DNA of 56,949 nt from Nitrospirota bacterium (GTDB taxonomy: Bacteria; Nitrospirota; Nitrospiria; SBBL01; JAADHI01). Below are positions 35,786-54,328 of the stretch, in pieces. The position numbers were made by a program, and so were the translations under genes. The DNA lies in NCBI GenBank assembly GCA_029261195.1, contig JAJDBU010000067.1, positions 1-56,949 of the forward strand. Direction: 5' to 3'. How positions within the stretch are numbered: position 1 is the first letter of the stretch; every line of letters begins with the position of its first letter. Under the pieces are notes generated by a model that saw nothing but the letters and a program-made list of their open reading frames with translations, was not told the origin of the DNA and searched no databases.

Positions 35786-36108
35786 TTCGCATCCTCCTAA
35801 AGTACTGCTCAGACCGAAAGAATCTCCCAAACAACATGCCAAAAACTATAACTGCTTTCTTTGAATTCTGTCAAGGAAAGAGGAACACATAAAATGGACA
35901 GCTTAATTGAAAGTTCAAAGTCTCTGCCACGTTAATGAAATTGAACTACAAAAATATTATTTGACAGTAGATCAAGAATACGGCTACCCTTTCAGCATAT
36001 CTCGGATACACATCTTTCTGAGAAGGATTGCTCTTCCATATCGCGACTGTACTCTGCTTTAGACTTGTTTGATGTTATCAAACGATCATCCCTATGTGGA
36101 GTTCCATA
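35786..36108. other. Divergent gap between moaD and the PEP-CTERM gene
   Basis: No gene is seen in these 323 bases. A perfect TTGACA at 35961-35966 points toward the PEP-CTERM gene but lacks a good -10 at 16-18 bp, so I do not call a promoter. No repeat or RNA gene is evident. Confidence 0.4.
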
Positions 36109-38545: not shown

Positions 38546-39004
38546 TCCGAAAACATCGAATGAGCCTCCATGCCGACTTGCCTTATACGGGATTTCAAGC
38601 CATAGAAAAGCCGGAGAAAAAGCATTTTAATACGGAATGAAAGCCAGAAATACAGGACTATACTCGTATGAAACCCCATTCAAGAATAATTTGTGACAAT
38701 TCATTGACATGCATAGTGGGGTATGATATAAATCGCGTACTTTTTCTGGGAGGACGCTGGGTGTCATCTGGAAAACATTGTGTAACTATATGAATTTATA
38801 AAGAAAATATTGTTAGAATCAGCAGAGATGTCCATTTGGATTTAGACGCTTTTGGTTGCTCTTTGGGGCCTCGAATTCGGACTATTTTTTCTGCTTGGAA
38901 ATATTGTTTGTTCGATTTTGCGTAACACCACAAGTTTGAACACCCTAAATGCTCATCTCGACAAGGGTAATAGGGATTGCCGGTCTTTAGGTCAAGGAAA
39001 GGGT
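38546..39004. other. Upstream region of the respiratory cluster
   Basis: This interval separates tsaC from the first cytochrome. Apart from the promoter at 38704-38732 I see no gene. An open frame that continues upstream from the cytochrome to a TTG at 38852 encodes a hydrophobic stretch but lacks a ribosome site; I treat it as leader. Confidence 0.4.
38704..38732 (+). promoter_or_regulatory. Near-consensus sigma70 promoter of the respiratory cluster
   Basis: A perfect TTGACA at 38704-38709 and TATAAA at 38727-38732 are separated by exactly 17 bp. It is the best promoter match in the window and stands before a 14.8-kb run of plus-strand electron-transport genes. A predicted start near 38740 leaves an untranslated leader of about 265 bases. 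Confidence 0.75.
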
Positions 39005-40168
39005 TTGAATTTGCACGAAAGAATCGAAACGGCCTTTAGAGTTGCCTTACTGTTTTTAGTTCTTCATTTCGTCGCTTTTTCCGGTTCTCCGGCCCATGCG
39101 GGACCTGACCCTGTAGAGGGCAAGCACCTTTTTAAACATTATTGCGTTGTCTGTCATGGCATTTCCGGAAAAGGAGATGGCATCAATGCGGATAGTCTGG
39201 GCGATGTCCACCCCACCGATCTAACCACCGCCGAGTTCGATAAATACGATGACGAGGAAATCTACGAGGTTATCGAAGGGGGGGGTGCTGCGGTTGACAT
39301 CTCCTATTATATGCCCCCTTGGGGTGAGGTTTTTTCGGAAGATCAAATCAATAGCATTATTACCTATGTCCGGACCCTGTCAGAAGAGCAGGGCGATCCT
39401 TCCATTGCTGCGGTGCGGGTAAGTAGCATTGGAAGGAAGGGGGAGGGAAAGTGCCTTGTTTGTCATGCAAAAAAGAGTAATCTGCTTAGCCCCATTGCGC
39501 CAAATATCGGACATGAAGGCAGTAAGTGGAAGCCGGAAGCGCTAGAGGAGTTTTTGAGGGAACCAGGGAAACTCCGTCCGAATGGGTTTATGCCTTTTAC
39601 CAAGGCGAAGATGCCGAATTTTTTCTTCACGGATCAGGAGATTACGGCACTCGTTGACTACCTGATGACCCTAAAAGACGAAGGGGTGAAGTCTGATGTC
39701 TTGATGGGCTGGGATCCGTCCGATGTTTCGGGGATTGAGGAGGGAGAATTTCTCTTCAACGAAGAGTTTGCCTGCGATGGCTGTCACAAGCGTTCTCCGG
39801 GAGGGGATGGAGGGATTGTCGGTCCGGAACTCTCGAATGCGATGGAACGGATACAACCCGAATGGGTTTATTATTGGCTGAAAAATCCTCAGGCGATGCG
39901 TCCCGATACCCCGATGCCTAACTTTAAGATGTCGGATAGCCAGATTCGGTCTATTCTTGCCTATATGATGACTTTGACTCCAGGTGAGTCAAGAGCAACG
40001 ACTGTGTCAAGTACGATCCCTGATCCCGCGTCCGTTGCCAAAGGGCAGCGGATTGCCGAAGGCAAGAATTGCGGTGGATGTCACCTGATGGATTCATTTA
40101 ACACGCAGCTTGGCATGGCTGATGAGAGTCAAGAGGAAGATCCGGCTTCTGAAACAACAGAAGAGTGA
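39005..40168 (+). CDS. Tetraheme cytochrome c
   Basis: The 387-residue periplasmic protein has a signal peptide ending SGSPAHAG and four CXXCH sites: CVVCH, CLVCH, CDGCH and CGGCH, each in a cytochrome c-like fold with downstream Met ligands (YMPPWGEVFS, MPFTKAKMP, MPNFKMSD). The first two thirds resemble tandem class I cytochromes of the cbb3-FixP type. I choose TTG at 39005 because AGGA lies six bases upstream and the signal peptide follows directly; TTG at 38852 is the longer alternative. It would pass electrons to the oxidase encoded downstream, by inference. Confidence 0.8.
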   Translation: MNLHERIETAFRVALLFLVLHFVAFSGSPAHAGPDPVEGKHLFKHYCVVCHGISGKGDGINADSLGDVHPTDLTTAEFDKYDDEEIYEVIEGGGAAVDISYYMPPWGEVFSEDQINSIITYVRTLSEEQGDPSIAAVRVSSIGRKGEGKCLVCHAKKSNLLSPIAPNIGHEGSKWKPEALEEFLREPGKLRPNGFMPFTKAKMPNFFFTDQEITALVDYLMTLKDEGVKSDVLMGWDPSDVSGIEEGEFLFNEEFACDGCHKRSPGGDGGIVGPELSNAMERIQPEWVYYWLKNPQAMRPDTPMPNFKMSDSQIRSILAYMMTLTPGESRATTVSSTIPDPASVAKGQRIAEGKNCGGCHLMDSFNTQLGMADESQEEDPASETTEE

Positions 40169-40194
40169 TAATAGTGATGAGGAAAGGTGAAAAC

Positions 40195-40722
40195 ATGAAT
40201 CGAAAAGCATCTCTTTGGGCGGTTAGTTTGTTTGTAGTTCTACTCTTGTTGGTTCCGAGTGCGGGGCATGCAGAAAAAGATGACGATGATAAGCCCTTGA
40301 AGCCTGTGCCGAAGGCCTTCGCCGACAAACATATGCCTAAGGGATGGTGGACTGACACCAAGATTATTGCTGAAGGGAAAAAGATCTTTGAAACAAGGGA
40401 GATTACCTATACCTATAAAAGAAAAGAAAAAACGGCTAAGGACGGTTGTGCAACCTGTCATGCGATCAATAAGAAAAAAGACCGCCCCAAAAAACGGGGT
40501 GCCAGAGATTTTCGCGTGGGTAAGCGGATGCATCGCTTCTCCGATAGCTACTGGTTCTGGAGGACTTCCGAGGGGGTGAAGAAGACATCAATGCCGGCAT
40601 GGGGTAAAGAACTGACTGAAGAGGAGATCTGGAAGGTGATCGCGTATGAGCATACCTGGTCACATGGAGATAAACCTGCGGTTCATGAGCATAAAGAGAT
40701 TGAGCGTAGCGTAGAGAAGTAA
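40195..40722 (+). CDS. Monoheme cytochrome c
   Basis: A 175-residue protein with signal peptide MNRKASLWAVSLFVVLLLLV... ending at about residue 26, a Lys/Asp-rich mature N-terminus and a single heme site CATCH. The downstream TSMPAWGKELTEEEIW carries the likely axial Met. An insertion between the CXXCH and the Met (KKKDRPKKRGARDFRVGKR) is unusually basic, suggesting a docking surface for an acidic partner. ATG at 40195 has AAGGTGA just upstream. It begins 26 bp after the tetraheme gene. Confidence 0.85.
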   Translation: MNRKASLWAVSLFVVLLLLVPSAGHAEKDDDDKPLKPVPKAFADKHMPKGWWTDTKIIAEGKKIFETREITYTYKRKEKTAKDGCATCHAINKKKDRPKKRGARDFRVGKRMHRFSDSYWFWRTSEGVKKTSMPAWGKELTEEEIWKVIAYEHTWSHGDKPAVHEHKEIERSVEK

Positions 40723-40747
40723 TAGCTTACGTCAGTGTAATTTTCAC

Positions 40748-40769
40748 GGCACCATTTGCGAATGGTGCC
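40748..40769 (+). promoter_or_regulatory. Intercistronic hairpin in the respiratory cluster
   Basis: GGCACCATT at 40748-40756 and AATGGTGCC at 40761-40769 form a perfect 9-bp stem with a TGCG loop between the monoheme cytochrome and the first MrpD-like gene. There is no U run, so it is more likely an RNA-stability or processing element that separates the cytochrome and membrane-subunit parts of the transcript than a terminator. Confidence 0.5.
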
Positions 40770-40824
40770 AAAATCCTAAAATGTCTATGGTGAGATAGGC
40801 GAGGCTGAGGTAATAAGAGCGAAT

Positions 40825-42330
40825 ATGGAAATGGAATCCATAAAACCGTTTTTGGCTGTGTTGATCCCGTTTATCGGCGGGGCAGCCATTATTGCAACTC
40901 GGAAAAACAAAAATATTCGTGAAGGCTGTTCGCTTGGAGCGGGTGTCCTGATGTTTTTTGTTGTTCTCAGTATGCTCTCGCCCGTTCTTGATGGTAAAAC
41001 CCTTCACTACACGCTCTTCGATTTCTGGCCGACTGTGCCCATTGGCTTCCGAGTGGATGGCTTGGGACTTCTCTTTGCCCTCGTTGCAGCTTTTACCTGG
41101 ATTTTAACAACCATTTATTCCATTGGTTACATGCGTGGCCTCAAGGAACACTCTCAAACCCGTTTTTATTTTTGTTTTGCGGTCACACTGTCTGCAACGA
41201 TGGGGGCGGCTTTTTCAAATAACTGGTTTACACTCTTCCTTTTTTACGAGTTGATCACTTTTTTTACTTATCCTCTGGTCGCGCACCATGAAACAAAAGA
41301 GGCCTGGGCAGGAGGAAACAAGTATCTCTTGTATCTTTTGGCAACCTCGAAACTTTTTATGGGCGTCGCCATTCTCTTGACCTATTACTACGCCGGATCA
41401 CTTGATTTTACGGCCAATGGCATTCTTCCTGCCGATGTGGAATCAGCGACCTTAACAATTATCTTTTTTCTCTACTTGTTCGGGGTTGCTAAAGCGGCAC
41501 TCATGCCTTTTTCAGCCTGGTTACCTGCCTCTATGGTGGCGCCCACCCCAGTGAGTGCGCTCCTTCATGCAGTTGCCGTTGTGAATACCGGGGCCTTTTG
41601 TATCTTGCGGGTTGTGCTTAATACCTTCGGTGTGGATTTGTTGCAGAGCCTGGATATCGGGTCGATTGCCGCCTATCTTGCCAGCTTTACGATTATTATG
41701 GCCTCGGTTTATGCAATGTCGAGGGATAACCTTAAGGAACGGATTGCGTATTCTACGGTCAGTCAACTTTCCTACATGATATTGGGCGGAGTGCTCTTGA
41801 GCGCCAGTGGGCTGACGGGAGGTATTTTGCATATCGCAAATCATGCAATAGCCAAAATCACGCTTTTTTTCTGTGCCGGTTCGATCTATGTGGCGACGAA
41901 AAAAACCCATGTCTCTCAATTGGATGGTATTGGCCGAAAAATGCCCTGGACGATGGGTGCCTTTGCGATTGCCACTCTAAGCATGGTCGGAGTACCTCCT
42001 TCTGCAGGTTTCTTAAGTAAGTGGTTTTTGTCACTAGGGGCAATTGAAGCGAACCAGGTACCTATTGTGTTTGTGATGCTGGTCAGTGGACTTTTAAATG
42101 CAATTTATTTTCTGCCTATTGTGCATCGGGCCTTTTTTAAAGCTCCAAATGAAGGCCTGTCTCTTGCGCTTGCAGGAGATAAAGATGGGGTTGCAGTGCA
42201 GGGGGTAGAGTCGTCTTTTAAGGAGCCGATGTATTGTGTCATTCCTTTGTGCATCACGGCTGGGGCGTCCATTCTACTAGGCATATTCCCGAATCTTCTT
42301 CTTGATCTGATCAAACAGGTGACAGGATGA
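40825..42330 (+). CDS. MrpD/NuoM-like ion-translocating subunit (first copy)
   Basis: The 501-residue protein has about 14 membrane helices of the Mrp/complex I antiporter family. The ion-path residues are in place: Glu142 (LFLFYELITFF), Lys223 in helix 7 (GVAKAALMPFSAWLPASM), His249 (SALLHAVAVVNTGAF) and Lys344 (HAIAKITLFF). It is therefore competent as a proton- or sodium-translocating channel. No other complex I genes (NuoA-K) are present; instead it precedes a second MrpD-like gene and the bd-like oxidase, so the likely partner is that oxidase. Confidence 0.88.
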   Translation: MEMESIKPFLAVLIPFIGGAAIIATRKNKNIREGCSLGAGVLMFFVVLSMLSPVLDGKTLHYTLFDFWPTVPIGFRVDGLGLLFALVAAFTWILTTIYSIGYMRGLKEHSQTRFYFCFAVTLSATMGAAFSNNWFTLFLFYELITFFTYPLVAHHETKEAWAGGNKYLLYLLATSKLFMGVAILLTYYYAGSLDFTANGILPADVESATLTIIFFLYLFGVAKAALMPFSAWLPASMVAPTPVSALLHAVAVVNTGAFCILRVVLNTFGVDLLQSLDIGSIAAYLASFTIIMASVYAMSRDNLKERIAYSTVSQLSYMILGGVLLSASGLTGGILHIANHAIAKITLFFCAGSIYVATKKTHVSQLDGIGRKMPWTMGAFAIATLSMVGVPPSAGFLSKWFLSLGAIEANQVPIVFVMLVSGLLNAIYFLPIVHRAFFKAPNEGLSLALAGDKDGVAVQGVESSFKEPMYCVIPLCITAGASILLGIFPNLLLDLIKQVTG

Positions 42331-42584
42331 ATCTAGGTGATTTTTTTAGAAAATACGGGGAAGATGACATTTTTTGCAAGAAGGCAAAAAAAGGGTTTTA
42401 TGTCTTTCTTGGTCTTGTGGTGATCAGTGATTTTTTTGTTCACCATGACCATGTGAATTTTTTATGGGACAAAATCCCCGGATGGTGGTCTGCATACGGA
42501 TTTATTTCAACCGTTGTTATGATTGTCCTTTCGAAGGCAATCGGACATGCCTGGCTGATGAAATCAGAGGATTATTATGATTGA
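42327..42584 (+). CDS. Small membrane protein between the MrpD-like subunits, 85 aa
   Basis: The 85-residue product has about two hydrophobic helices (YVFLGLVVISDFFV and YGFISTVVMIVLSKAIGHAW) and charged ends. I recognise no family. It overlaps the preceding stop by 4 bp (ATGA) and overlaps the next start by 8 bp, so it is firmly locked in the operon and is probably a structural subunit between the two antiporter-like proteins. Confidence 0.7.
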   Translation: MNLGDFFRKYGEDDIFCKKAKKGFYVFLGLVVISDFFVHHDHVNFLWDKIPGWWSAYGFISTVVMIVLSKAIGHAWLMKSEDYYD

Positions 42585-44112
42585 GTGGGTTTCACCCTCC
42601 CTGTTCTTCTATCTCGGCGCTGCGATTCTTCCTTTTATAAAAGGAAAAGGCCGCTCAGGACTTCTGCTTTCCATTCCAGTGCTTGCCTTGCTCACGATTC
42701 TTTCCGCTTCTCAGGGCATCCATGGTGTCGTGTCTTTTGCTGGCCAGGAACTGATCTTCGGTCGTGTAGATAAACTGAGCCTTGGATTCGGCGCTGTTTT
42801 TATGGTGAGTGCCTTTGCGAGTCTTGTTTTTGCTTTACATGTGAAGGATTGTCGCGAGCACATTTCGGCCTTGCTCTATGTCGGCAGTGCGGTGGGAGCG
42901 GTTTTTGCGGGAGATCTCTTTTCTTTCTTTCTGTTCTGGGAGATTGCTTCCTTCTCTTCTGTTTTTTTGATTTGGTTGAGAGGGGAAGAGGCTTCAAATG
43001 CTGCCGGGATGCGTTATATTCTGGTGCATATTACCGGAGGTCTGCTTCTCTTTGGCGGCATTGTTATTCATGTCGGTAGCGGTGGAGGCATCGCTTTTGA
43101 CGCAATGCCTCAAATGGGTCTGGGCCCGACACTCATGTTGATGGGCTTTCTGATCAATGCGGCGGTTCCACCGGTTCATGCCTGGTTGGCGGATGCCTAT
43201 CCTGAGGCCACACTGACCGGCGTGATTTTCTTGAGTGTCTTTACGACCAAGACAGCTATTTATGCTTTGATACGCGGGTTTCCTGGAACACCGATCCTCA
43301 TTGTTTTAGGTGCGGTGATGGCCGTTTATGGTGTGATGTATGCGGTCAATGAAAATAATTGCCAGCGAGTCTGGTGCTATCATCTGATCAGTCAAAATGG
43401 CTATATGATCACCGGGATCGGTATCGGGACGGCACTGGGAATCAACGGCGCAGTCTCTCTCGCCTTTACAAATATTGTTTACAAGGCATTGCTCATGATG
43501 GGTATCAGCTCAGTCACTCACATGACAGGTGGGAGAAAGCAATCCGAGCTGGGTGGTCTTTATAAAAGCATGCCTTGGACTTTTCTGCTCTTTGTGGTCG
43601 GGGGCTTTGCGATTGCTGGGGTGCCACCGCTTGTAGGCTTTGTGAGTAAGTCGATTGTGGTTTCTGCAGCGGCTGAAATACATCAGGGTTGGGTCATATT
43701 AATGCTCGTTTTTGGTGCCTGTGGAACTTGGCTTCATCCCCTAAAGCTCATCTATATGGTCTTTCTTGGAGAAGACAGGGCTAAGGACAGGAAGATCAAG
43801 GTGACGGATCCACCGGCCAATATGTTATGGGGAATGAGAATTCTTGCAACGCTTTGCATCGTTTTCGGACTTTTCCCTGGGTTACTCTACGGCATGTTCC
43901 CGGAGCCCATGGAGTACCATCCTTACACTCTGGGTCATCTGGTTGAAGCCTTTCAATACATGGGCTTTACCCTCTTGGTCTTTATGCTGTTCCTGAAAAA
44001 GCTGACGCCGGAAAATTATATCAGTCTGGACACCGATTATATCTATCGAAAAGGAAGTCTTGTTTTTATGTGGTTGGTCAAGCGTCTCGCATTTTTGAGG
44101 CATGTGACATGA
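42577..44112 (+). CDS. MrpD/NuoM-like ion-translocating subunit (second copy)
   Basis: The 511-residue protein has about 14 helices. Glu122 (FLFWEIASFSS) and Lys225 (TTKTAIYAL) are conserved, but the helix-7 lysine position reads LINAAVPPVHAWLADAYPEA, with Asn194 where the first copy has Lys223; I recall the same Asn in one MrpD/MbhH-related clade. The C-terminus SLDTDYIYRKG resembles MrpA/D tails. The two copies differ enough to be separate modules and not a recent duplication. It precedes the oxidase by 66 bp. Confidence 0.87.
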   Translation: MIEWVSPSLFFYLGAAILPFIKGKGRSGLLLSIPVLALLTILSASQGIHGVVSFAGQELIFGRVDKLSLGFGAVFMVSAFASLVFALHVKDCREHISALLYVGSAVGAVFAGDLFSFFLFWEIASFSSVFLIWLRGEEASNAAGMRYILVHITGGLLLFGGIVIHVGSGGGIAFDAMPQMGLGPTLMLMGFLINAAVPPVHAWLADAYPEATLTGVIFLSVFTTKTAIYALIRGFPGTPILIVLGAVMAVYGVMYAVNENNCQRVWCYHLISQNGYMITGIGIGTALGINGAVSLAFTNIVYKALLMMGISSVTHMTGGRKQSELGGLYKSMPWTFLLFVVGGFAIAGVPPLVGFVSKSIVVSAAAEIHQGWVILMLVFGACGTWLHPLKLIYMVFLGEDRAKDRKIKVTDPPANMLWGMRILATLCIVFGLFPGLLYGMFPEPMEYHPYTLGHLVEAFQYMGFTLLVFMLFLKKLTPENYISLDTDYIYRKGSLVFMWLVKRLAFLRHVT

Positions 44113-44178
44113 AATATTCAGTTGATGGAAATAGGATGAAGGGACGTTCTGCCTTTGGAATTCAAAGGGGAGGGTATC

Positions 44179-46650
44179 ATGAGTTTAATTAAATCGATCA
44201 AAAAACAACCCCTGATGTGGGCCGTTTTTCTCCTTATGGCGCTATTCGCGCTTCCTTCACCCTCTGTTTTTGCGGAGACCGGTTCTTCGGTGAGCTACCG
44301 GGATATCGGTGGCATCGGCAGCCGTAATCTGATCTGGATCTTATCTCAGATTCATATCTTGTTTGGCGCTTTTGTCTTAGGTGTGCCCATCTTTGTCATC
44401 ATTGTAGAGGTCATCGGTATTACGACAGGGGATAAGCGCTATGATCGCCTTGCCAAAGAATTTACAGACCTGATTGTTGCCTGTTTTGCGACGACCGCGA
44501 CTCTCGGGATACTTTTTCTTTTTGCTCTGCTTGTTTTTTACCCTGAGTTAATGAGTGTGATGGCGGGTATCTTTAAGCCGGCCTACTATGTTTATCTCGC
44601 CCTTTTCTTGGGAGAAACGGCCTCGATTTACTTTTACTGGTCTCGTTGGGAAAAGTGGCAGAACCGTAAAGGCCTCCATCTTTTTTGGGGAATGGCGCTT
44701 AATATCTTCGGATTTGTCATTATGTGTCTTCCCAGTGGTTTCCTTTCCTTTCAGGCAAGTCCCGTTGTTTTGAACCCGGATCTGGGACCATGGGAAAGAG
44801 CCTGGACTGCTATAAATAACCCGACGTGGTGGCCGGTGAATATTCACCGCATTGTCGGAAATATCGTGCTTGGAGGCTTTGTCTGCGGCGCTTACGCAGG
44901 GGTTGCGTATCTAGGTGCGAAAACTCAAGAAGAGCGTGAGCATTACGATTGGATGGGTTATACCGGAAATTTTATTGGTGTTTTCGGTTTGCTCCCGATG
45001 CCCTTTGCCGGTTACTGGCTCATGCGGGAAGTATACGAATATAACCAACAGATGGGCATTACCCTCATGGGAGGGATTCTCTCCTGGCTTTTTATTCTCC
45101 AGGCGGTTCTTATTGGAGTGCTCTTTGTCGGTTCAAACTACTACTTCTGGCAGGGAATTGCCTATCGAACACACTCTGCACCCAAGTATAAAACGCCAAT
45201 TCTCATTATGCTGGTGGTATTGGTTGGTTCGTTCTCTGTGTGGCTTACACCTCACTCTCTGGTTGCAAGTGTTTCCGAGGCCAGGGCGATGGGAGGTTCT
45301 CACCATCCTCTTCTGGGGGTCTTCGGGGTGATGTCGGCCAAGCTGACCGTTGTGAACCTGATGATTATTACGACCTTTATCTGTTTTATCCTCTATTGGC
45401 GGGCAGATAAAGTCATCACGGTGAAGTGGGGGAAAGCGGCCAATATATTTACATTTGTCTTGATCACTGCGGCAGTCATCGTCATTATCTGGCTTGGCGT
45501 TTATGGTTATTTTGTGCCATCTGTCTATCGGGTGAATGTGCTTTCCGTGGCTCAGGTGCTCGCTGTTATTTTTGTTCTGGCTACGATTACTCCTTTGACT
45601 GCCCTCTCTCTCAAATCGGCTAAGCTGACCCATGAGATGAAATGGGGGATCATGCCAAAGCGATCCCAATATGCTTTGGTCATCAATGCGGTTTTTGTTG
45701 TTTTAACAATGTCCCTGATGGGATATGCCCGTTCTGCCTCACGTGTCCATTGGCATATCTATGGTGTGCTGGAAGATACTTCTTCCTATGGCTATACGCC
45801 AACCTTAGGGGTCGCTTCTTTTCTTTTTGTGGTCAATACAGTTATCTTCTTTGTTTTGGTGGGTATCGTTTTTTGGACATCACACACGATACGACATAAT
45901 CGTTTTTCTACACGCTATTTCTTTCTGCCTTCGGTCTTCATGTACCTTGTTGATCGCTTTAGTGAACACCGAAAAGAGGTCGCAAAAGGAGAAACCGGAC
46001 CCCGTTTTGTTATTTTAAAGGTTGCTGCCGTCGTCGGTGTGTTTTTATTTGCCTACTCCTATGTGGGCTATCAGGTTCCGCAGAAGGTGGGTCTGCCTCC
46101 TGAAAAAAAGGAGTTGGATCTGACGAAAATTAAGACTTCGGATGATATGGTGCAGATCGGTCAGGAAATTTTTTACAGCAAGGGACAGTGTGCCCTGTGT
46201 CACTCGATTGGTGCGGGTCATGGTCGTTGTCCCAACCTCGCCGGTGTGGGAGCTCGGCTGACGCGAGAGTTCATCTATGAAACGCTAACGGAGCCCGAGG
46301 CCTATATCAAATTGGACTTCCATACCGCAATGCCGGTTGAGTATTCTGCCCAGATGCCTGTGATCAGTAAACCGCCTATCGGTCTTTCAGAGCAGGAGTT
46401 GCTTACCGTGATTGCATTCGTTCAAAGCAATGGAGGGAAAGTGACCGTAAGACCGGAAGAGCTGTCACAGGTTCCCGGCAATTCAGAATCGACTCCAGAG
46501 GCACTTGATGTGATGCCGCAGCTTGAACCTGCTGAATTGATTGAGGACGAGTCTGACGAAACCCCGGAAGAACGCGCAATGATCCAAGGGGAATCATTCG
46601 AGGGAGACAGGCATATTAGGATGGCTACAAAAAGAGTGAGTGACAGATAA
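44179..46650 (+). CDS. Cytochrome bd-like oxidase fused to cytochrome c domain
   Basis: The 823-residue membrane protein has an N-terminal CydA-like part: His59 (SQIHILFGAFVLG), Glu146 (FLGETASIYFYW) and His223 (WWPVNIHRIVGN) are where bd oxidases place heme ligands. After about 14-16 helices comes a periplasmic class I cytochrome c domain with CALCH (671-675) and FHTAMPVEYSAQMP. The canonical Q-loop motif of quinol oxidases is not evident, so cytochrome c as electron donor is plausible. Such bd-like proteins are known from Nitrospira. ATG at 44179 has GGGGAGGG upstream; the in-frame codon at 44155 is less likely. Confidence 0.85.
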   Translation: MSLIKSIKKQPLMWAVFLLMALFALPSPSVFAETGSSVSYRDIGGIGSRNLIWILSQIHILFGAFVLGVPIFVIIVEVIGITTGDKRYDRLAKEFTDLIVACFATTATLGILFLFALLVFYPELMSVMAGIFKPAYYVYLALFLGETASIYFYWSRWEKWQNRKGLHLFWGMALNIFGFVIMCLPSGFLSFQASPVVLNPDLGPWERAWTAINNPTWWPVNIHRIVGNIVLGGFVCGAYAGVAYLGAKTQEEREHYDWMGYTGNFIGVFGLLPMPFAGYWLMREVYEYNQQMGITLMGGILSWLFILQAVLIGVLFVGSNYYFWQGIAYRTHSAPKYKTPILIMLVVLVGSFSVWLTPHSLVASVSEARAMGGSHHPLLGVFGVMSAKLTVVNLMIITTFICFILYWRADKVITVKWGKAANIFTFVLITAAVIVIIWLGVYGYFVPSVYRVNVLSVAQVLAVIFVLATITPLTALSLKSAKLTHEMKWGIMPKRSQYALVINAVFVVLTMSLMGYARSASRVHWHIYGVLEDTSSYGYTPTLGVASFLFVVNTVIFFVLVGIVFWTSHTIRHNRFSTRYFFLPSVFMYLVDRFSEHRKEVAKGETGPRFVILKVAAVVGVFLFAYSYVGYQVPQKVGLPPEKKELDLTKIKTSDDMVQIGQEIFYSKGQCALCHSIGAGHGRCPNLAGVGARLTREFIYETLTEPEAYIKLDFHTAMPVEYSAQMPVISKPPIGLSEQELLTVIAFVQSNGGKVTVRPEELSQVPGNSESTPEALDVMPQLEPAELIEDESDETPEERAMIQGESFEGDRHIRMATKRVSDR

Positions 46651-47469
46651 TTGTTGATTAAACGAAAAGGGAAATTGTTCGTTCTTCCATTCTTGGTGTT
46701 GTTCTTGCTCGTTTCCGTAGGTTGTGAGGACAAGTATATCGCCAAAGGACATAAGGTCTTTAGTCGTTACTGCTCACCCTGTCATGGAGAGGCCGGGGAT
46801 GGATTAGGGTACAATGCGAAGAATCTGGACCCTCAGCCGCGAGACCTGACGGATGCAGACGAAGATTATATGGCCAAACTGTCGAATAATGAAATTTACG
46901 AAGTGCTTCAACTGGGCGGTTACGGTGTCGATCTCTCCGGTGGCATGCCGGTGTGGGGAAAGGTTTTTTCAGAAGAAGAGCTCTGGTCCTTGGTCGCCTT
47001 TGTCCGCACGCTTCATCCGAATGAAGGTAATGAGATTGCTTTCACAAAACCGGATTCAGAGGAATCGGTGTTTAATGCGAAGCGTGTTCGATATCCCAAA
47101 GTACGAGAAAAGAAGTTCTATGATTTATTGGAAGCCTTGGCACCGGATGAAGAATCTTTTGATGAACAGGTTGCTGCGGGGGAAGAGATCTTCGCCGAGG
47201 TCGGTTGTAATTCCTGCCACAAGGTGAATGGTGAGGGAGGGACATTGGGGCCTGATTTGTCCCAAGCCGGATTTATGCTTCAGACGCAGTTCATTTTTCG
47301 TTGGATTCTGAATCCGCAATCATTTGTGGCAAAGACGAGGATGCCCAACCTGGACTTAAATGAGGAGGATGCCCTTGCCATTTCACTATACGTCAGTACG
47401 CTAAAAGAAGCTTCTTCTGGAAATTCGGTTTCTGAAGAAGACGATGACGCAGAAGAGGGGGGAGTTTAA
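46651..47469 (+). CDS. Diheme cytochrome c lipoprotein
   Basis: This 272-residue protein has a signal sequence ending LLVSVGC, a lipobox, so it should be lipid-anchored in the periplasm. Two heme sites, CSPCH and CNSCH, each have downstream Met candidates (GGMPVWGKVFSE and TRMPNLDLNEED). The first half closely parallels the N-terminus of the tetraheme protein (SNNEIYEVLQLGG versus DDEEIYEVIEGGG), pointing to a shared origin. It starts at TTG directly after the oxidase stop and ends acidic. Likely direct electron donor to the oxidase, by inference. Confidence 0.85.
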   Translation: MLIKRKGKLFVLPFLVLFLLVSVGCEDKYIAKGHKVFSRYCSPCHGEAGDGLGYNAKNLDPQPRDLTDADEDYMAKLSNNEIYEVLQLGGYGVDLSGGMPVWGKVFSEEELWSLVAFVRTLHPNEGNEIAFTKPDSEESVFNAKRVRYPKVREKKFYDLLEALAPDEESFDEQVAAGEEIFAEVGCNSCHKVNGEGGTLGPDLSQAGFMLQTQFIFRWILNPQSFVAKTRMPNLDLNEEDALAISLYVSTLKEASSGNSVSEEDDDAEEGGV

Positions 47470-47471
47470 AA

Positions 47472-48218
47472 ATGAAAATGCCTCTCGTTGCTAAGGCCTC
47501 TGCATGTGTATTTGGTTTCTTCCTTTTTTTGAAATTAGGCTTACCCCTTTTTACGAGTCCACTTCCTTACAGTGTGCTCGCGATGTACATGATTTTGGTC
47601 CTGATCTCGACTCTGCTCTATGTTTCGATTTTTGAAGACGACTATAGCAATTTTTATCTTCCGATTGTGAAGTTTCTTCGTGGGGACGAAGGGGACAATG
47701 CTGTTCGGAAGATGAGCCGGATTGCAGTTTTTGTCATGATTCCTCTGTTTATGGGCTTTCGGACCTACAAGAGCGTCCAGCCGAACTTTGAACCCCCTTT
47801 TCCGCAACGTGTGATTCATCCTGCACCACCTGGCTCGGCCGCCGGTTTTGTCAATCCTTACGGGGGTGATGAAGCGAATCATGAAAAATATGTTCAGGAA
47901 GGACGTAAAGTTTATTATGAAAACTGCGTCTTTTGTCATGGGGATAAGTTGGATGGTAAAGGTTTTTTTGCAAATGCCTTAAACGTCAAGCCGGCTAATT
48001 TTGCAGATCCGACAACCATCTCAATGCTTCAGGAATCTTTTGTCTTCTGGCGGGTTAAGACGGGTGGAATTGGGCTTCCTGAAGAAGCTACGCCATGGGA
48101 TTCTGCAATGCCGAGATGGGAATTAATCTTGTCGGAAGAGGAACGATGGAAGGCCGTTATGTTTTTGTATGACTATACCGGATGGAAACCAAGGACTTGG
48201 GAATTAGATGCTGAATAG
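47472..48218 (+). CDS. Membrane-anchored monoheme cytochrome c
   Basis: The 248-residue protein has two or three N-terminal helices (about 8-55 and 83-97), a proline-rich linker and a periplasmic cytochrome c domain with CVFCH and a downstream AMPRWELILSEEERW. The mixed plan resembles membrane subunits with attached cytochromes in the oxidase clusters of this type, but I cannot name a family. GGGGGGAG precedes the ATG; only 2 bp separate it from the previous gene, and its end overlaps the next by 11 bp. Confidence 0.8.
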   Translation: MKMPLVAKASACVFGFFLFLKLGLPLFTSPLPYSVLAMYMILVLISTLLYVSIFEDDYSNFYLPIVKFLRGDEGDNAVRKMSRIAVFVMIPLFMGFRTYKSVQPNFEPPFPQRVIHPAPPGSAAGFVNPYGGDEANHEKYVQEGRKVYYENCVFCHGDKLDGKGFFANALNVKPANFADPTTISMLQESFVFWRVKTGGIGLPEEATPWDSAMPRWELILSEEERWKAVMFLYDYTGWKPRTWELDAE

Positions 48219-49797
48219 TCTATTAAATAAAAGTTGGTTAAAGGCCCTTCCTCTGCTCTTTTTAGCGGTGGTGCTTTTATTTGGATGGACTCCGTTGGTT
48301 GCAGCTGATGAAGAGCATGACGATGCAGCTCCAACGGCTGAAACGGCGGAAGAAAATGCTCTCCCCACGGATGATCTTGCTGCCGGAAAAATGATTTATG
48401 AAAAACTGTGTATCTCCTGTCATGGCATAGAAGGGGACGGTGATGGACCTGCAGCGGTTCGCTTTCAACCTAAACCGAGAAGTTTTAAGAAAGCAAAATA
48501 CAAGTATCGAACGACTCCAAAGGGCAAGCTTCCAACCGACGAAGATCTATTCAGGGCGATTACCCTGGGTCTTCCCGGAACGGGGATGCCGGATTGGGCG
48601 GATGTCCTGTCCGAAAAAAAGATTCGACAAGTGATTAAATATATTAAAAGCTTTTCCGATGAATGGGAAAAACAAGAGTCCTCTCCTCATGTTGTCACAG
48701 TAGGCACGGTCGTTCCTACAAGTCCCGAAAGTGTAGAAAGAGGGAAAAAACAATTTACTGCACTCGGTTGTCAACTTTGTCATGGAACGGAAGGTCGGGG
48801 AGACGGACCCACGGCATCGGCGCTGAAAAATCATCGGGGCGATCCCGTCTATCCAAGAAATCTCAATAAAAATTGGCTCTTCAGGGGAGGGGGTAAGGCG
48901 GAAGACATTTATGTTCGTGTTAATACCGGTCTTAGCGGGACTCCCATGCCCGAGTTTTCGGGGGCATTGGATAATGAAAAAAGTTGGGATTTGGCAAACT
49001 ATGTTCGATCCCTTTCTCCGGAAAAGACGCCGGAACGAGGATCTTTAATCAAGGCGCGTTCCATTGAGGAGACCATCCCGGTTGACCCGGATGACCCGAT
49101 CTGGCAGGAGGGAGAGCCCACTTGGTTTCCGATGATGGGACAGATTTCTTTTGAAAAGAGGCTCTTTACCCCCTCTGTGACAGATATTACGGTTAAATCC
49201 GTTTTTAATGAAAAAGAAATCGGCTTCCTCCTGATATGGGATGACCGAAGTAAGAGCAAAACAAGTAAACCTGGCGCGAAGAAAATAAGCTTCACCGATC
49301 AAGTTGCAATTCAATTCCCTGAAAAGCTGCAGCCGGGTGGCGTGAAAAAACCTTATTTTATCATGGGAGATGAAAAATTAGGCGTTAACTTATGGAACTG
49401 GACTTCAGAGGATAATCGCTTCTTTGAGACGAATGCCTACGGTGTTTGGAACAATAGTGAAGTAGAGCAAAGTGGTTCTGATATCAGCGGTAAGGGCTAT
49501 TACAAAAACGGCCAATATCGCCTAGTCATCAAAAGGTCTTTTCAAACCTCAGATAGTGAAAAAGATATTCAATTTGAAAAGGGCATCTTCTACCCAGTCG
49601 CTTTTTTTGCTATGGATGGGACGAATGGTGAAAAGGGTTCACAAAGGTCAATTACTCCTTGGTATTTTGTTTTCATGGAACCGGAAGAAGATAAGAGTGT
49701 TTACTATTATCCGCCCATTGTAATCGCGCTAGTGTTTGGACTGGAATTTATTTTAGTGAAAATTTTGAAAAAGAATCATAAAAAAGAAAACGTATAG
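48208..49797 (+). CDS. Diheme cytochrome c with EBDH/NXR-gamma-like heme b domain
   Basis: The 529-residue protein has a signal peptide (to about 32), two cytochrome c domains (CISCH and CQLCH), then an ethylbenzene-dehydrogenase-related domain (about 285-490) with VDPDDPIWQEGEPTWFPMM, VKSVFNEKEIGFLLIWDD and PYFIMGDEKLGVNLWNWTS, and a final membrane helix with a basic tail. That domain is the heme b subunit type found in DMSO-reductase-family enzymes such as nitrite oxidoreductase gamma subunits. No catalytic alpha or beta subunit is nearby, so here it likely acts as an electron conduit. Confidence 0.82.
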   Translation: MLNSLLNKSWLKALPLLFLAVVLLFGWTPLVAADEEHDDAAPTAETAEENALPTDDLAAGKMIYEKLCISCHGIEGDGDGPAAVRFQPKPRSFKKAKYKYRTTPKGKLPTDEDLFRAITLGLPGTGMPDWADVLSEKKIRQVIKYIKSFSDEWEKQESSPHVVTVGTVVPTSPESVERGKKQFTALGCQLCHGTEGRGDGPTASALKNHRGDPVYPRNLNKNWLFRGGGKAEDIYVRVNTGLSGTPMPEFSGALDNEKSWDLANYVRSLSPEKTPERGSLIKARSIEETIPVDPDDPIWQEGEPTWFPMMGQISFEKRLFTPSVTDITVKSVFNEKEIGFLLIWDDRSKSKTSKPGAKKISFTDQVAIQFPEKLQPGGVKKPYFIMGDEKLGVNLWNWTSEDNRFFETNAYGVWNNSEVEQSGSDISGKGYYKNGQYRLVIKRSFQTSDSEKDIQFEKGIFYPVAFFAMDGTNGEKGSQRSITPWYFVFMEPEEDKSVYYYPPIVIALVFGLEFILVKILKKNHKKENV

Positions 49798-49826
49798 TAG
49801 TTTAAAAGCTAAGAGATTATTGTTAA

Positions 49827-50366
49827 TTGGATTTATTTGTTGAGATTGGAGAGTTATATAAGAGGACAAAATACCTATTGAAATATTTGCTTGTTTTAAT
49901 TTCAGTGCTGGGATTCTCCGGAGTTGCAGTTGCGGAACACGAAGCCAATCATCGATATCTGGTTTCAGGCTATGTTCGGGATGCGGCAGGTAAACCTCTT
50001 GGAAATACGAAGGTAGAGCTTGAGCACAAAGGTGGCGAGGGGAAAAAGGTCACTACTGATAATGACGGGTATTATGAGGCCCGCTTTCACCTTCATAACC
50101 AAAATCTTGGAGATAGAATTGTTGTTGTCGCCTCGGGGGTGACAAAAAAAATAAAGGTTCAATTCGATACGGAAGATGGAATCAGCTTTCGTGGGAGTGC
50201 TGTTAACTTTGGGGCGGAGTCAAATGACAATTCACCCATTTGGACCTTTTTAACAATTGCGTCCTTGGTTGTTTTGTCAGGTACGATTTACTTTGGTTTG
50301 ATAAAAAGAAAGAAAAAATCGAATGCTCCGGAGAAACTTAAGAAGCTCAAAAAGAAACGAAAATAA
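49827..50366 (+). CDS. Carboxypeptidase-regulatory-like domain membrane protein
   Basis: A 179-residue protein with a signal peptide or anchor (about 17-35), one carboxypeptidase-regulatory-like Ig fold (YLVSGYVRDAAGKPLGNTKV, then TTDNDGYYEARFHLH), and a second membrane helix near 138-155 followed by a very basic cytoplasmic tail. The start is uncertain: TTG at 49827 is the first codon, and TTG at 49878 directly before KYLLVLISVLG is an alternative. It lies inside the electron-transport cluster and carries no heme site, so it may be an assembly or structural subunit. Confidence 0.7.
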   Translation: MDLFVEIGELYKRTKYLLKYLLVLISVLGFSGVAVAEHEANHRYLVSGYVRDAAGKPLGNTKVELEHKGGEGKKVTTDNDGYYEARFHLHNQNLGDRIVVVASGVTKKIKVQFDTEDGISFRGSAVNFGAESNDNSPIWTFLTIASLVVLSGTIYFGLIKRKKKSNAPEKLKKLKKKRK

Positions 50367-50405
50367 GGATATAAGTTTTTATGAACTGTAGGGAAGGGAG
50401 GGTAT

Positions 50406-50966
50406 ATGGCAGGCGCTGAACAAAAAGGGGAAAGTCCTGAGGACGTCAGTCGCAGGCGATTTTTTACCCTGATGAGCCTAGGTGTTGGCTGGGGTGGCGT
50501 GGTCGCGACACTCGGCGGTATCGGCGCAGGTGCGGCGCGCTATATGTTCCCTTCCGTGCTTTATGAGCCTCCCACTGTTTTCAAGATCGGACTTCCTAGT
50601 GGATATGGTATGGGGGTTGATACTAAATTAAAAAAAGAACGTCAGGTTTGGGTGGTTAGGAATGAGAGAGGCATCTATGTCTTAGTCGCGATTTGTCGAC
50701 ATCTTGGCTGCACGCCGAATTGGTTCTCAGACCAAAAACTCTTCCGTTGTCCCTGTCATGGCAGTATATATGACCCCCATGGTAACGTGGTAGGTGGACC
50801 TGCACCGCGTACATTGTGGCGTTCTGCGATTTCCCTGGATCCTGTTGACGGTCAAATTGTTGTGGATTTTAATCTGAGACAAGATCCGGACCCTGTTGGT
50901 ACGCCGGAAGGTCTCATGGTTGAAGAAGCGAGCCGGGAAGTCGAACCCTATTTTTTAAAGGTTTAA
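50406..50966 (+). CDS. Rieske iron-sulfur protein
   Basis: The 186-residue subunit accepts electrons from quinol in the bc complex. An N-terminal Tat-type SRRRFF and anchor helix (about 24-44) precede the cluster domain with CRHLGC and CPCHGS, two Cys and two His for the 2Fe-2S centre plus the disulfide cysteines, and GPAPRTL. GGAGGG stands four bases before the ATG. It begins the bc-complex block, followed at 22 bp by cytochrome b. Confidence 0.95.
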   Translation: MAGAEQKGESPEDVSRRRFFTLMSLGVGWGGVVATLGGIGAGAARYMFPSVLYEPPTVFKIGLPSGYGMGVDTKLKKERQVWVVRNERGIYVLVAICRHLGCTPNWFSDQKLFRCPCHGSIYDPHGNVVGGPAPRTLWRSAISLDPVDGQIVVDFNLRQDPDPVGTPEGLMVEEASREVEPYFLKV

Positions 50967-50988
50967 GCGTTAAGGAGATAGCTTAAGG

Positions 50989-51759
50989 ATGTGGGAATTA
51001 TTTCAACGAATTCGATCGGTCGTCAATAAAACACAGGCATTCAAATCGATCTTCAGGCATGGTTTTCCGAATAATGATGGCAATCGTGCCCTTGTAATGT
51101 TTAGCAATATTATTCTCCATCTTCATCCGGTTCGGGTTCGGCGTGGTGCCCTAAAAATAAAATTCACTTGGTGCCTTGGCGGACTCACGTTTTTCTTCTT
51201 CATCCTGCTTGCCATTACCGGTGTGTTCCTAATGTTTTATTATGTCCCGGATACGAACCGGGCCTACGGGAATATCAAGGATTTGGGAACGGTGATTTTC
51301 TTCGGAGATCTTTTCAGAAGTCTCCATCGCTGGTCGGCGCATTCCATGGTTCTTTTTGTATGGCTTCATATGACTCGGGTCTTTTTTACTGGATCCTATA
51401 AACCCCCACGCGAATTTAACTGGGTTGTCGGAGTCATCCTCTTGTCCACAACCTTGGTACTAAGCTGGACGGGCTACTTACTTCCTTGGGATCAGTTGGC
51501 GCTTTGGGCCGTTACAGTCGGAAGTAAAATGGCGGAGGCTTCTCCTCTTATAGGGAAAGCAGGTCCCTTCGGCGCCGAACTCGGGATGAATGCAAATAAT
51601 GACATCACCTTTGCATTACTGGGTGGTACTGTGGTCGGGCAGAGTGCTCTACTCCGCTTTTATGTGCTTCACTGCCTGGCATTGCCGCTGGTGACCGCCC
51701 TCTTTATTGCCATCCATTTCTGGCGAATCCGTAAAGACGGTTTTTCTGGTCCCTTATAA
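50989..51759 (+). CDS. Cytochrome b6-type subunit (N-terminal half of split cytochrome b)
   Basis: The 256-residue protein has four helices with the two bis-His heme b pairs: [18 protein letters not shown] in helix B and [20 protein letters not shown] in helix D. Cys62 in [11 protein letters not shown] aligns with the cysteine that holds the extra heme c (ci/cn) in b6f complexes, so a b6f-like complex with a third heme is likely. It is followed by the separate C-terminal half, the b6/subunit IV split. AAGGAG precedes the ATG. Confidence 0.93.
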
Positions 51760-51790
51760 ACGAAACGACTGATTGAATTAGAGGAAACAC

Positions 51791-52657
51791 ATGCCGCAAA
51801 AAAGTGTCAATCCTGGATCAATGGAAATAAAAATCGATAAAAAATCAGACGATCTTCTCGCGCGAATCAAGAAAACGGCCCTTAAGAAAATAGGGCCCGA
51901 AGACACAGTACTGGTCTGGCCAAATCTGGTTTATCTTGAATTGATTGCCATGATGTTTGCTTTGGCGATTCTCTTGTTTCTCTGTCTCTATTCACCAGCG
52001 CCCTTAGAGGAGTTGGCGAGTGCCGATACAACCCCAAATCCGACGAAAGCCCCATGGTATTTTCTGGGTTTACAGGAGTTGCTTGTTTTCTTTGATCCCT
52101 GGCTTGCTGGAGTGGTTCTACCCTCATTAATCATGGTCGGGCTGATCTTAATTCCCTATATCGATCCAAACCCGAAAGGAAAGGGATATTATACTTTTTC
52201 AGAAAGGAAGTTTTCAGTTATAGGTTTCAGCTTTGGACTGGCACTCTGGTACATATTGATCGTTGTCGGTGTCTGGTTTAGAGGACTCGACTGGTCATGG
52301 TACTGGCCTTGGGATGACCCTCACATGCATCAACCGGCTGGTGCCGTCAAACTAGTCGACCTACAAGTGATTCTGCAAAGTACATTGGGACTCAGTGAAA
52401 CTCCTGTTGCCACCTTGGGGAGGTATGTTGTTTCCATGGCAAACCTTATTACTTGGGGGATTTTTGTGGGTTATTACGCCATCGGGTTTGCAATACCCTT
52501 CCTCATATTTCGGAACTTTTACAATAAGTTGGGATTTGTACGCTATAACCTGACGATGTTTTTTTTCTTATCAATGCTGGGCGTCCCGATGAAGATATTT
52601 CTTCGCTTGCTTGCCGATATTAAATATGTACTGGTGACACCCTGGTTCAATATATGA
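51791..52657 (+). CDS. Cytochrome b C-terminal half (subunit IV-like), extended
   Basis: The 288-residue protein carries the Qo-site loop as APWYFLGLQELL, a variant of PEWY with Pro-Trp. The first three helices resemble subunit IV; extra helices follow at about 217-240 and 255-275, so it is longer than plant subunit IV (160 aa). A cytoplasmic N-terminal stretch of about 45 residues is lysine-rich. No heme c is attached. It follows cytochrome b6 by 31 bp and precedes the small 43-residue membrane protein. Confidence 0.92.
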   Translation: MPQKSVNPGSMEIKIDKKSDDLLARIKKTALKKIGPEDTVLVWPNLVYLELIAMMFALAILLFLCLYSPAPLEELASADTTPNPTKAPWYFLGLQELLVFFDPWLAGVVLPSLIMVGLILIPYIDPNPKGKGYYTFSERKFSVIGFSFGLALWYILIVVGVWFRGLDWSWYWPWDDPHMHQPAGAVKLVDLQVILQSTLGLSETPVATLGRYVVSMANLITWGIFVGYYAIGFAIPFLIFRNFYNKLGFVRYNLTMFFFLSMLGVPMKIFLRLLADIKYVLVTPWFNI

Positions 52658-52687
52658 CGTCTATTTTATTAAATACGAGGTTGAACA

Positions 52688-52819
52688 ATGGATGATTTAT
52701 GGGCGTATCCTTACCGGCTGGGTATTGGGATTTTTATGGTTGTCGGGACATTCCTGCTCACAGTCCTTTTTATCGGATTTACGGCTTGGCTTGAACGAGA
52801 CTTTAAAAAAGATAAATAG
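52688..52819 (+). CDS. 43-aa single-helix membrane protein of the bc complex
   Basis: A small gene not obvious in longer gene scans: ATG at 52688, with GAGG seven bases upstream, encodes MDDLWAYPYRLGIGIF..., one membrane helix (about 11-34, VVGTFLLTVLFIGFTAWLE at its centre) and a short basic end before TAG. It sits between the subunit IV-like gene and the tetraheme cytochrome in the same direction. By analogy with PetG/L/M/N, a small stabilising subunit is my best interpretation. Confidence 0.7.
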   Translation: MDDLWAYPYRLGIGIFMVVGTFLLTVLFIGFTAWLERDFKKDK

Positions 52820-52888
52820 CAAAGCGGTAGAACTTGTTAGTTTTCTCCTTGCTTTTCAGAGAAATATGATGGGGGTATTGATCTTTTC

Positions 52889-53809
52889 ATGGTAAAGCAT
52901 ATTGTATTCGCGGTCTCAAGCATGGCTGTTGTCTTTCAGTTGGGTCTATTTGTTTACAACTTTGAAACCGCAGAGTGGAGAGGCTACCAGTCCACTTATT
53001 ATAAAAAGTTGGCTGAGGTGACGAACACACCTGAAATTGCGAAGACTTCTCTTAAAGTTCAGCAGGTTTGGGACAAAGACCTGGATCGGCCGGACAGATG
53101 CACGACCTGTCATGGCGGGGTGGCCAATCCGGCTTTTGAGGGCGAGCCACAACCCTACACGACCCATCCCCACTTTAAAGATCAGGCCTTCATTTCAAAA
53201 CATCCTTTTGAAAAATTTGGCTGTACGATTTGTCATGAGGGAAGCCCTCACGCAGTCACGGTTAAAGCGACACATGGTGTTGTGAAACATCTGGATCGAC
53301 AGTTGTTAACAGGTCCCTATGTCCAGGCCTCCTGCACGAAGTGCCATTACGAACTTTTGAACCGTGACGTTTATTGGCCCGAAGCAGAGGTGTTGATGAA
53401 AGGGAAACAGCTCGCTTATGAACTCGGCTGTGGAGCCTGCCATGCGATTCGTCAATTTGGAACATCACCGACGGTTGCACCGGAACTTTCCAATGCAGGC
53501 AGCAAGACGGAACTATCCTTTAGCTTAGTTCACGATTTTTCAAATCTGGAATCAGAAGATCATCTGATGCGTGTTTGGGAATGGGAGCATTTTAAACAAC
53601 CGCGAAAAATCGTCCCAGGACATCCGGATGCGCCCAATCCAAAAGATAGAACCTCTCCGACAATTATGCCGAACTGGGACTTGACCGACGATGAAGCGAC
53701 TGCTCTGACTGTCTTTGTCATGTCCCTGAGAGATCCAGCCGTTGAGAATATCCCTCCCTCTTATTTTCCAAAGGTCAAGGAACATGAAGGATTTTTGCAG
53801 TATAGATAG
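52889..53809 (+). CDS. Membrane-anchored tetraheme cytochrome c
   Basis: The 306-residue protein begins with an uncleaved helix (about 4-24), then four heme sites: CTTCH, CTICH, CTKCH and CGACH. The first three lie close together with extra His residues (YTTHPHF, THGVVKH), as in multiheme cytochromes with bis-His ligation; the last is in a class I-like domain with TIMPNWDLTDDE. It replaces the usual cytochrome c1/f as electron acceptor for the Rieske protein, by position. Ribosome site is weak. Gene order Rieske-b6-IV-small-cytochrome fits a complete bc-type complex. Confidence 0.9.
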   Translation: MVKHIVFAVSSMAVVFQLGLFVYNFETAEWRGYQSTYYKKLAEVTNTPEIAKTSLKVQQVWDKDLDRPDRCTTCHGGVANPAFEGEPQPYTTHPHFKDQAFISKHPFEKFGCTICHEGSPHAVTVKATHGVVKHLDRQLLTGPYVQASCTKCHYELLNRDVYWPEAEVLMKGKQLAYELGCGACHAIRQFGTSPTVAPELSNAGSKTELSFSLVHDFSNLESEDHLMRVWEWEHFKQPRKIVPGHPDAPNPKDRTSPTIMPNWDLTDDEATALTVFVMSLRDPAVENIPPSYFPKVKEHEGFLQYR

Positions 53810-53890: not shown

Positions 53891-54328
53891 TTGAGAGCCC
53901 TAGGAACCCACATTCTTTTGGAGTTAAACGAATGCAACTCCGAGGTTCTTCGGGACTTGAAACTCATCGAAGCTTTACTTCTCTCAGCGGCAAAAAAAGC
54001 GAATGCAACAATTGTAGAAAGCAGGTTCCACCAGTTCAGCCCTTTTGGGATCAGTGGTTTTGTTGTCATTGCGGAATCACATCTCAGCATCCATACTTGG
54101 CCTGAGCATTGTTATGCAGCGGTCGATATCTTTACCTGTGGTGAGACCTTAAAGCCCCATCTCGCCATCTCATATCTCGTAGAAAAACTTGAATCACTTA
54201 ATCCGTCAATTGTAGAACTTAAAAGAGGCCTCTTTTCTAAGAGAGGAGCGTCACTTGAGTTCATCGCCCTTAAAGAAGTGGAACAACTCCGTCATGTCCC
54301 AGGAAAAGTCCAACAAATGGTTCTTTGA
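53891..54328 (+). CDS. speH: S-adenosylmethionine decarboxylase, SpeH-type
   Basis: The 145-residue pyruvoyl enzyme makes decarboxylated AdoMet. Self-cleavage is expected before the serine in ESHLSIHTWPE, with VDIFTCGE carrying the catalytic Cys. The start is TTG at 53891, supported by AAAGGAG seven bases upstream. It is the first gene of the speH-speE-speA operon and overlaps speE by 32 bp. The short form matches the prokaryotic class 1B proteins. Confidence 0.93.
   Translation: MRALGTHILLELNECNSEVLRDLKLIEALLLSAAKKANATIVESRFHQFSPFGISGFVVIAESHLSIHTWPEHCYAAVDIFTCGETLKPHLAISYLVEKLESLNPSIVELKRGLFSKRGASLEFIALKEVEQLRHVPGKVQQMVL

Follow-up and report, generated by a model that had tools for sequence, protein, structure and literature searches.

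The subject of this study is a run of respiratory genes at positions 38704-53809 of the window, a 56,949-nucleotide stretch of DNA that constitutes contig 64 of a 3.04-Mb Nitrospirota genome. This island places the gene for a bd-family oxygen reductase subunit with a C-terminal cytochrome c fusion (CydA-c) next to a three-gene cassette, MrpD1-p85-MrpD2, which by sequence comparison is homologous, gene for gene, to part of the rhizobial 'green' complex I. The best explanation that we can offer, for which we consider the case evenly balanced, is that a cytochrome-c-fed bd-family oxidase is physically joined to this exchangeable complex-I-type cassette, that redox energy drives the pumps, and that the b6f-like part of the island stands separate.

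The island is the TO_2 cluster of 'Candidatus Manganitrophaceae' and carries, as that cluster does, two MrpD-like genes beside one for a bd-like oxidase. Among named relatives, the oxidase region is closest to locus L039 (loci, contigs and genomes are cited by our own labels), from a metagenome-assembled genome labelled Candidatus Manganitrophaceae bacterium; all genes stand there in the same order, with identities of 91% for MrpD1, 91% for p85, 93% for MrpD2 and 87% for CydA-c. From this likeness we infer that the host belongs to Ca. Manganitrophaceae. In the published account (Yu, Chadwick, Lingappa and Leadbetter 2022, PMC9040806), TO_2 comprises a bd-like oxidase, two unusual ion-pumping MrpD-like subunits and periplasmic and membrane cytochrome b, is said to be confined to Ca. 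Manganitrophaceae, and is proposed to act by electron bifurcation or by ion flow driving quinone reduction. An earlier note on this DNA, made from the sequence alone, had suggested a supercomplex that takes electrons from quinol or periplasmic cytochromes and couples them to ion pumping, or runs in reverse. Neither the cluster nor the ion-coupling idea is new, as that interpretation largely matches Yu et al. (2022) in the inferred organism family, the bd-like oxidase, the two MrpD-like subunits, the periplasmic/membrane cytochrome b and the functional speculation. The passages of that account that we compared do not include p85, a 43-residue open reading frame (ORF), the missing C-terminal region of MrpD2, the alternative second pumps or a minimal paralogue, and they describe a family-restricted cluster, whereas we find the module also outside Ca. 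Manganitrophaceae. What the present comparison adds is the modular, recombining pump cassette and its spread beyond that family.

The island, its oxidase and its pump cassette

Families were assigned by Pfam and NCBIfam searches, and subunit IV by a search of the PDB. The features of the island, all on the + strand, are as follows.

38704..38732, +, predicted promoter-like site TTGACA-17-TATAAA; one match in the window against 0.06 expected
38852..40168, +, cyc1, tetraheme c-type cytochrome with 4 CXXCH; over the cut-off of the SoxX-like model TIGR04485
40165..40722, +, cyc2, monoheme c-type cytochrome
40825..42330, +, mrpD1, MrpD/NuoL-family pump subunit; NF006236, 675 bits, over cut-off
42327..42584, +, p85, small protein, predicted to form two helices, that accompanies the MrpD pair
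42577..44112, +, mrpD2, second pump subunit; NF009310, 604 bits, over cut-off
44155..46650, +, cydA-c, bd-family (OR-N2-like) oxidase subunit with C-terminal cytochrome c fusion; PF01654 48.7 bits, Cytochrom_C 28.5 bits
46651..47469, +, cyc3, c-type cytochrome with two hemes; LVSVGC (by eye) hints at a possible lipoprotein
47472..48218, +, cyc4, c-type cytochrome with one heme and a membrane anchor
48208..49797, +, nxrC-like, heme b domain of ethylbenzene-dehydrogenase/NXR-gamma type with two heme c domains fused to it; EB_dh 58.7 bits
49827..50366, +, cpd, carboxypeptidase-regulatory-like domain protein; a neighbour kept in relatives
50406..50966, +, Rieske iron-sulfur protein
50989..51759, +, cytochrome b6-type subunit; the Cys in FTWCLGG resembles the b6f heme-ci site (by eye)
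51791..52657, +, subunit IV-like; PDB search only, 1q90_D, 2.8e-06
52688..52819, +, 43-residue single-helix ORF, MDDLWAYPYRLGIGIFMVVGTFLLTVLFIGFTAWLERDFKKDK, within the 231 bp that separate subunit IV from mhc
52889..53809, +, mhc, tetraheme c-type cytochrome

The earlier note had counted thirteen same-strand genes. Their common direction stands, while the number is 14 genes of ordinary size, to which the 43-residue ORF, then missed, is added. Successive genes are separated by -11 to +42 bp, save for 102 bp between cyc2 and mrpD1 and 231 bp between subunit IV and mhc. The tally of 15 CXXCH sites in seven proteins proved exact (4+1+1+2+1+2+4), and the single near-consensus promoter was recovered at 38704; a consensus promoter scan missed it because the scan requires T as the sixth base of the second hexamer. 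Also borne out were the two MrpD-like proteins, the bd-like oxidase and the b6f-like complex, here a Rieske protein with a split cytochrome b (b6 and IV), in which the subunit IV-like protein has APWY in place of the PEWY motif. The NXR-gamma-like heme protein likewise holds up on its EB_dh domain; on TIGR03477 it reaches 85 bits against a cut-off of 170, related yet below the family line. The start of cyc1 is uncertain: TTG at 38852 is one of several in-frame candidates up to 39011, and the true start may lie near 39005. Comparison across genomes, which the earlier note had proposed, found the gene order kept in several others, more than chance would give; the first ground on which that note would have been refuted, an order kept by no relative, therefore does not apply. 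The position of the 43-residue ORF is kept in L039, L041, L042, L043/L188, L044/L134 and L050/L133 and partly in L132; a purine-rich stretch lies upstream of it.

When aligned with the E. coli subunit, CydA-c keeps the H19 and H186 positions and does not keep K252 and E257 of the quinol loop; of the GRQPW motif, R448 and W451 are kept and the remainder is not, the second half of this alignment being imprecise. Because the quinol-loop residues are not conserved, quinol, which the earlier note had admitted as a donor, is unlikely to feed the oxidase directly. The methionine of a GVMSAK motif is nearly invariant and may, by eye, be the counterpart of the E. coli M393 ligand. All ten best Foldseek matches of the predicted CydA-c model are CydA chains; the model serves to confirm the CydA fold only, and heme ligands beyond the H19/H186 positions are not placeable by structure. 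CydA-c thus differs from the canonical quinol-oxidising CydAB in lacking K252, E257 and an intact GRQPW, and no CydB occurs among the proteins of the cluster (no genome-wide CydB search was made).

In the CydA tree, with OR labels taken from published work, CydA-c groups with Nitrospira OR-N2-like CydA and not with OR-N1. The CydAA' oxidase of Nitrospira pairs an NIDE0901-like OR-N2 with an OR-N1 subunit (PMC12342949, PMC10839748). Its OR-N2-like subunit shares about 54-63% identity with CydA-c and also adjoins genes for an NXR-gamma-like protein and c-type cytochromes; CydA-c differs from it in its fused cytochrome c, its MrpD cassette and the want of a detected OR-N1-like partner. No OR-N1-type partner was found in the host genome or its family, the host matches of at most 40% to the OR-N1 query being known other paralogues. 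The host genome holds four CydA-like genes: the window copy, a second on contig C55, and those on C75 and C77. Besides the window and C55 copies, CydA-like genes of this genome were noted at L124:4866-11020 and L125:10352-12355; what are probably the same two genes in G253, G157 and G173 are separated by about 3 kb, and the two are perhaps the TO_1 pair. The cytochrome c fusion is present in 18/18 MrpD-linked CydA and in 4/129 other CydA, a comparison biased by the query, which was itself fused. A search of plasmids with the oxidase gave no match.

In the pump cassette, E142, K223, K344 and K399 of MrpD1 are invariant among 20 aligned homologues, and MrpD1 has the TM5 Glu, TM7 Lys and TM12 Lys; MrpD2 keeps E122, K225 and K358. 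Its TM7 position is Asn194, and nearly all MrpD2 have Asn there, whatever their context. We considered this Lys-to-Asn change as the mark of an oxidase-specific altered pump and rejected the idea, since MrpD2 of complex I also has Asn.

The small protein p85 has no Pfam or NCBIfam match, and its AlphaFold model is a two-helix hairpin of low confidence. A tblastn search of plasmids with p85 returned 99 records, all rhizobial, the best at 46% identity; in S. meliloti and Ensifer the homologue sits between the two pump genes in the order nuoJ-nuoK-MrpD1-small ORF-MrpD2-nuoM-nuoN. The three homologous genes thus share their order and kind of overlaps with the rhizobial green complex I. The cluster differs from that complex in having no Nuo subunits, and its MrpD2 lacks the C-terminal extension. 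Mrp-type Na+/H+ antiporters share the MrpD-family subunits with conserved Lys and Glu residues, but have MrpA-G in one operon, whereas the cluster has only MrpD-type genes; a full Mrp operon is present elsewhere in the host genome (L128). A p85 profile matched in 55 of 296 Nitrospirota genomes, and the neighbourhoods sampled there are complex I operons, Mrp-type antiporter operons, MrpA-fused Mrp operons (L190/L191) and bd-like oxidase loci. In the fused operons (L190:3531-9749 and L191), MrpD1-p85 is followed by an MrpD2 joined to an MrpA-like C-terminus (748-765 residues), then by MrpB, MrpC and MrpD. The host itself has two complex I operons with such MrpD pairs, on contig 3 with p85 and on contig 71 without it.

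A second pump of several origins

The two pump subunits differ in their phylogeny. In the MrpD1 tree all oxidase-linked sequences form one moderately supported group (92/86), whose neighbours are complex I MrpD1 proteins from the same order. In the MrpD2 tree the Manganitrophaceae-type sequences lie within the complex I clade and the Nitrospira-type sequences (L046, L048, L053, L055, L129) in that of the Mrp-antiporter operons; forcing both oxidase-linked types into one clade gives a tree 390 log-likelihood units worse (p-AU 1e-43). The MrpD2 of L042 groups with a complex I MrpD2 encoded in the host genome (100/100), and forcing it to join the other Manganitrophaceae-type sequences is rejected by 82 units (p 2e-9). 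At L041, L043, L044 and L050 a different MrpD-like protein of about 600 residues occupies the MrpD2 position, and p85 is absent. Judged by these relationships, the second pump slot has been filled from at least three sources. The possibility that the entire MrpD1-MrpD2 pair arose once for all oxidase loci was considered and is rejected for MrpD2 by the constrained trees; for MrpD1 a single origin is possible on the 92/86 grouping, and the CydA tree does not resolve the origin of the pair (support 29).

Oxidase-linked MrpD2 proteins also share a short C-terminus. After the YRKG motif they have 11-41 residues (n=14; 18 in the window protein), compared with 94-161 in complex I MrpD2 (n=16), 71-122 in Mrp-operon MrpD2 (n=10 complete) and 258-276 in two MrpA-type fusions, with no overlap with the oxidase-linked range. 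On a tree built without that region, three changes are needed to account for the short form. The amphipathic helix HL acts as a brace for adjacent pump subunits in both Mrp and complex I (PMC7419157), and, judged by its position, the region after YRKG probably holds HL. The oxidase-linked pair has thus probably lost contact with a neighbour of the NuoM/NuoN kind.

Minimal units, two layouts and spread beyond the family

A second copy of the unit is found on contig C55 of the host genome, with identities of 78% (MrpD1), 86% (MrpD2) and 84% (CydA-c), and without p85, adjacent cytochromes, NXR-gamma-like or b6f-like genes; L069/L187 is a similarly minimal copy that has p85. About 4 kb from the C55 oxidase cassette (L122:4713-10742) lie genes resembling those for DabB and DabA, which together take up inorganic carbon. 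In the Manganitrophaceae type the cassette immediately precedes cydA-c; in the Nitrospira type it immediately follows that gene and stands before cyc4; at L129 the frames of cassette and cydA-c overlap by one base. The b/c genes of the Nitrospira-type loci are a different, more distant set (cytochrome b 36-37% identity).

Outside Ca. Manganitrophaceae the module occurs in G181 (another family code in the same order), G165, G263, L046, L048 and L053. G165 also encodes a 1149-residue protein scoring 192.6 bits on TIGR03479, where long N. moscoviensis proteins score 189.6-195.1 bits, and which is presumably a Nitrospira-type NxrA; no long protein with such a score was found in the Manganitrophaceae genomes. 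The presence of the module in a genome with a presumed Nitrospira-type NxrA weakens the published argument, in which confinement to one family links TO_2 to manganese oxidation.

A further unit, L055 (9300-19000), lies on a 178-kb contig binned as Gammaproteobacteria and consists of CydA-c, cassette, cyc4, NXR-gamma-like protein and cyc3, with no b/c genes. Its tetranucleotide use correlates with Nitrospiria loci at r 0.90 and with the rest of the contig at 0.64-0.65, while its flanks correlate with the contig at 0.86-0.90. This suggests horizontal transfer of the unit; a chimeric assembly is possible. An ORF resembling an IS256-type transposase (by eye) lies at L055:5158-6210.

Proposed energy coupling and competing explanations

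The protein families, operon order, pump residues, absent bracing region, modular swaps and co-duplication can be read from the genomes; from them we infer a physical complex, a route for electrons, and pumping with its direction, although the direction of ion movement itself cannot be read from sequence. An association of oxidase and cassette is argued for by their adjacency in two layouts, their co-duplication, the short MrpD2 C-terminus and the finding that the second pump was exchanged and not lost; the conserved charged residues of MrpD1 and MrpD2 suggest pumping. In the scheme that we favour, the NXR-gamma-like protein and multiheme cytochromes would feed periplasmic c-type cytochromes, which would pass electrons through the fused cytochrome c of CydA-c to the CydA-type hemes, where oxygen would be reduced with cytoplasmic protons. 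The redox energy would be handed to MrpD1 and MrpD2, which would move extra H+ or Na+. The b6f-like complex would be a separate, co-regulated module through which these cytochromes and the quinone pool exchange electrons.

The energetics would leave room for such coupling. Potentials given in the TO_2 paper are +466 mV for Mn(II) and +818 mV for O2 (PMC9040806). By our own rough estimate, the reaction from Mn(II) to O2 yields about 1.4 eV per O2, of which bd chemistry would take about 0.7 eV at an assumed proton-motive force of 0.18 V; with Mn(II) as donor, energy would be left for roughly 3-4 extra charges per O2. A stronger claim, that a bd-family reductase has been made into a true redox-driven ion pump by grafting a complex-I-type cassette onto CydA-c without CydB or CydA', with the second pump refilled from several sources, is conceivable though doubtful. 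If the module pumps, it would be another way to build an ion-pumping oxygen reductase, and the complex I membrane arm would be a set of parts attachable to other redox enzymes. The different second pumps, each with a short C-terminus, make the pumping idea testable.

Several observations speak against a redox-driven oxidase-pump complex. The complex I coupling subunits NuoH/J/K have no homologue in the cluster, so that there is no known path by which CydA could drive the pumps, and cytochrome bd is described as an enzyme that conserves energy but pumps no protons (PMC8951039). The TM7 lysine is missing from MrpD2, as it is in complex I, and neither the C55 copy nor the oxidase loci with a replaced second pump have p85. 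The three independent shortenings of the MrpD2 C-terminus, all in one direction, do not reach significance at so small a number (sign test p 0.25), and the CydA-c model has a low confidence (pLDDT 59.5).

The coupling might instead run the other way. In the dissipative mode proposed by Yu et al. (2022), inflow of ions through the MrpD subunits drives electrons uphill from Mn(II)-level cytochromes to quinone through b-type cytochromes, perhaps with bifurcation to O2 reduction. High-potential donors do need uphill quinone reduction, most members of the family retain a b6f-like complex within this operon, its Qo motif is altered to APWY, and the idea is already in the literature (PMC9040806). Yet the oxidase-pump unit persists without b6f-like genes in the C55 paralogue and in the gammaproteobacterial copy, and in both layouts the cassette adjoins the oxidase and not the b/c genes; we consider this mode unlikely. 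That the MrpD pair and p85 form a separate Na+/H+ antiporter or ion channel, merely co-transcribed and serving, for example, pH or sodium balance, would accord with the homologous cassettes in Mrp-type antiporter operons, and co-transcription is no proof of a complex. The other Mrp subunits are nevertheless missing from the cluster while the L128 operon supplies them elsewhere in the genome, and a specific partner is indicated by the oxidase-specific short C-terminus, by a position always next to cydA-c and by the co-duplication, making a free-standing antiporter distinctly unlikely.

We regard as very unlikely a single obligate supercomplex of oxidase, cassette, NXR-gamma-like protein, c-type cytochromes and b6f-like complex. 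The entire gene order is conserved in several family members, with short gaps and overlaps between genes, as such an assembly would have it; its parts are nonetheless separable, as the minimal paralogue and the transferred unit without b/c genes illustrate, and the b/c genes of the Nitrospira type belong to another set. Of the supercomplex in the earlier note, the link between oxidase and MrpD proteins, which are adjacent in two layouts, co-duplicated and seemingly moved together, is well supported, while obligate inclusion of the b6f-like and NXR-gamma-like parts is not, since the C55 paralogue lacks both and the L055 unit lacks the b/c complex.

Directly downstream of the island (53891-56685) are speD-like, spermidine synthase and Orn/Lys/Arg decarboxylase genes, with similar ones following the cluster in L133 and L134. 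Upstream, at 36094-36777, a secreted-looking protein has a C-terminus that resembles, by eye, a PEP-CTERM sorting signal.

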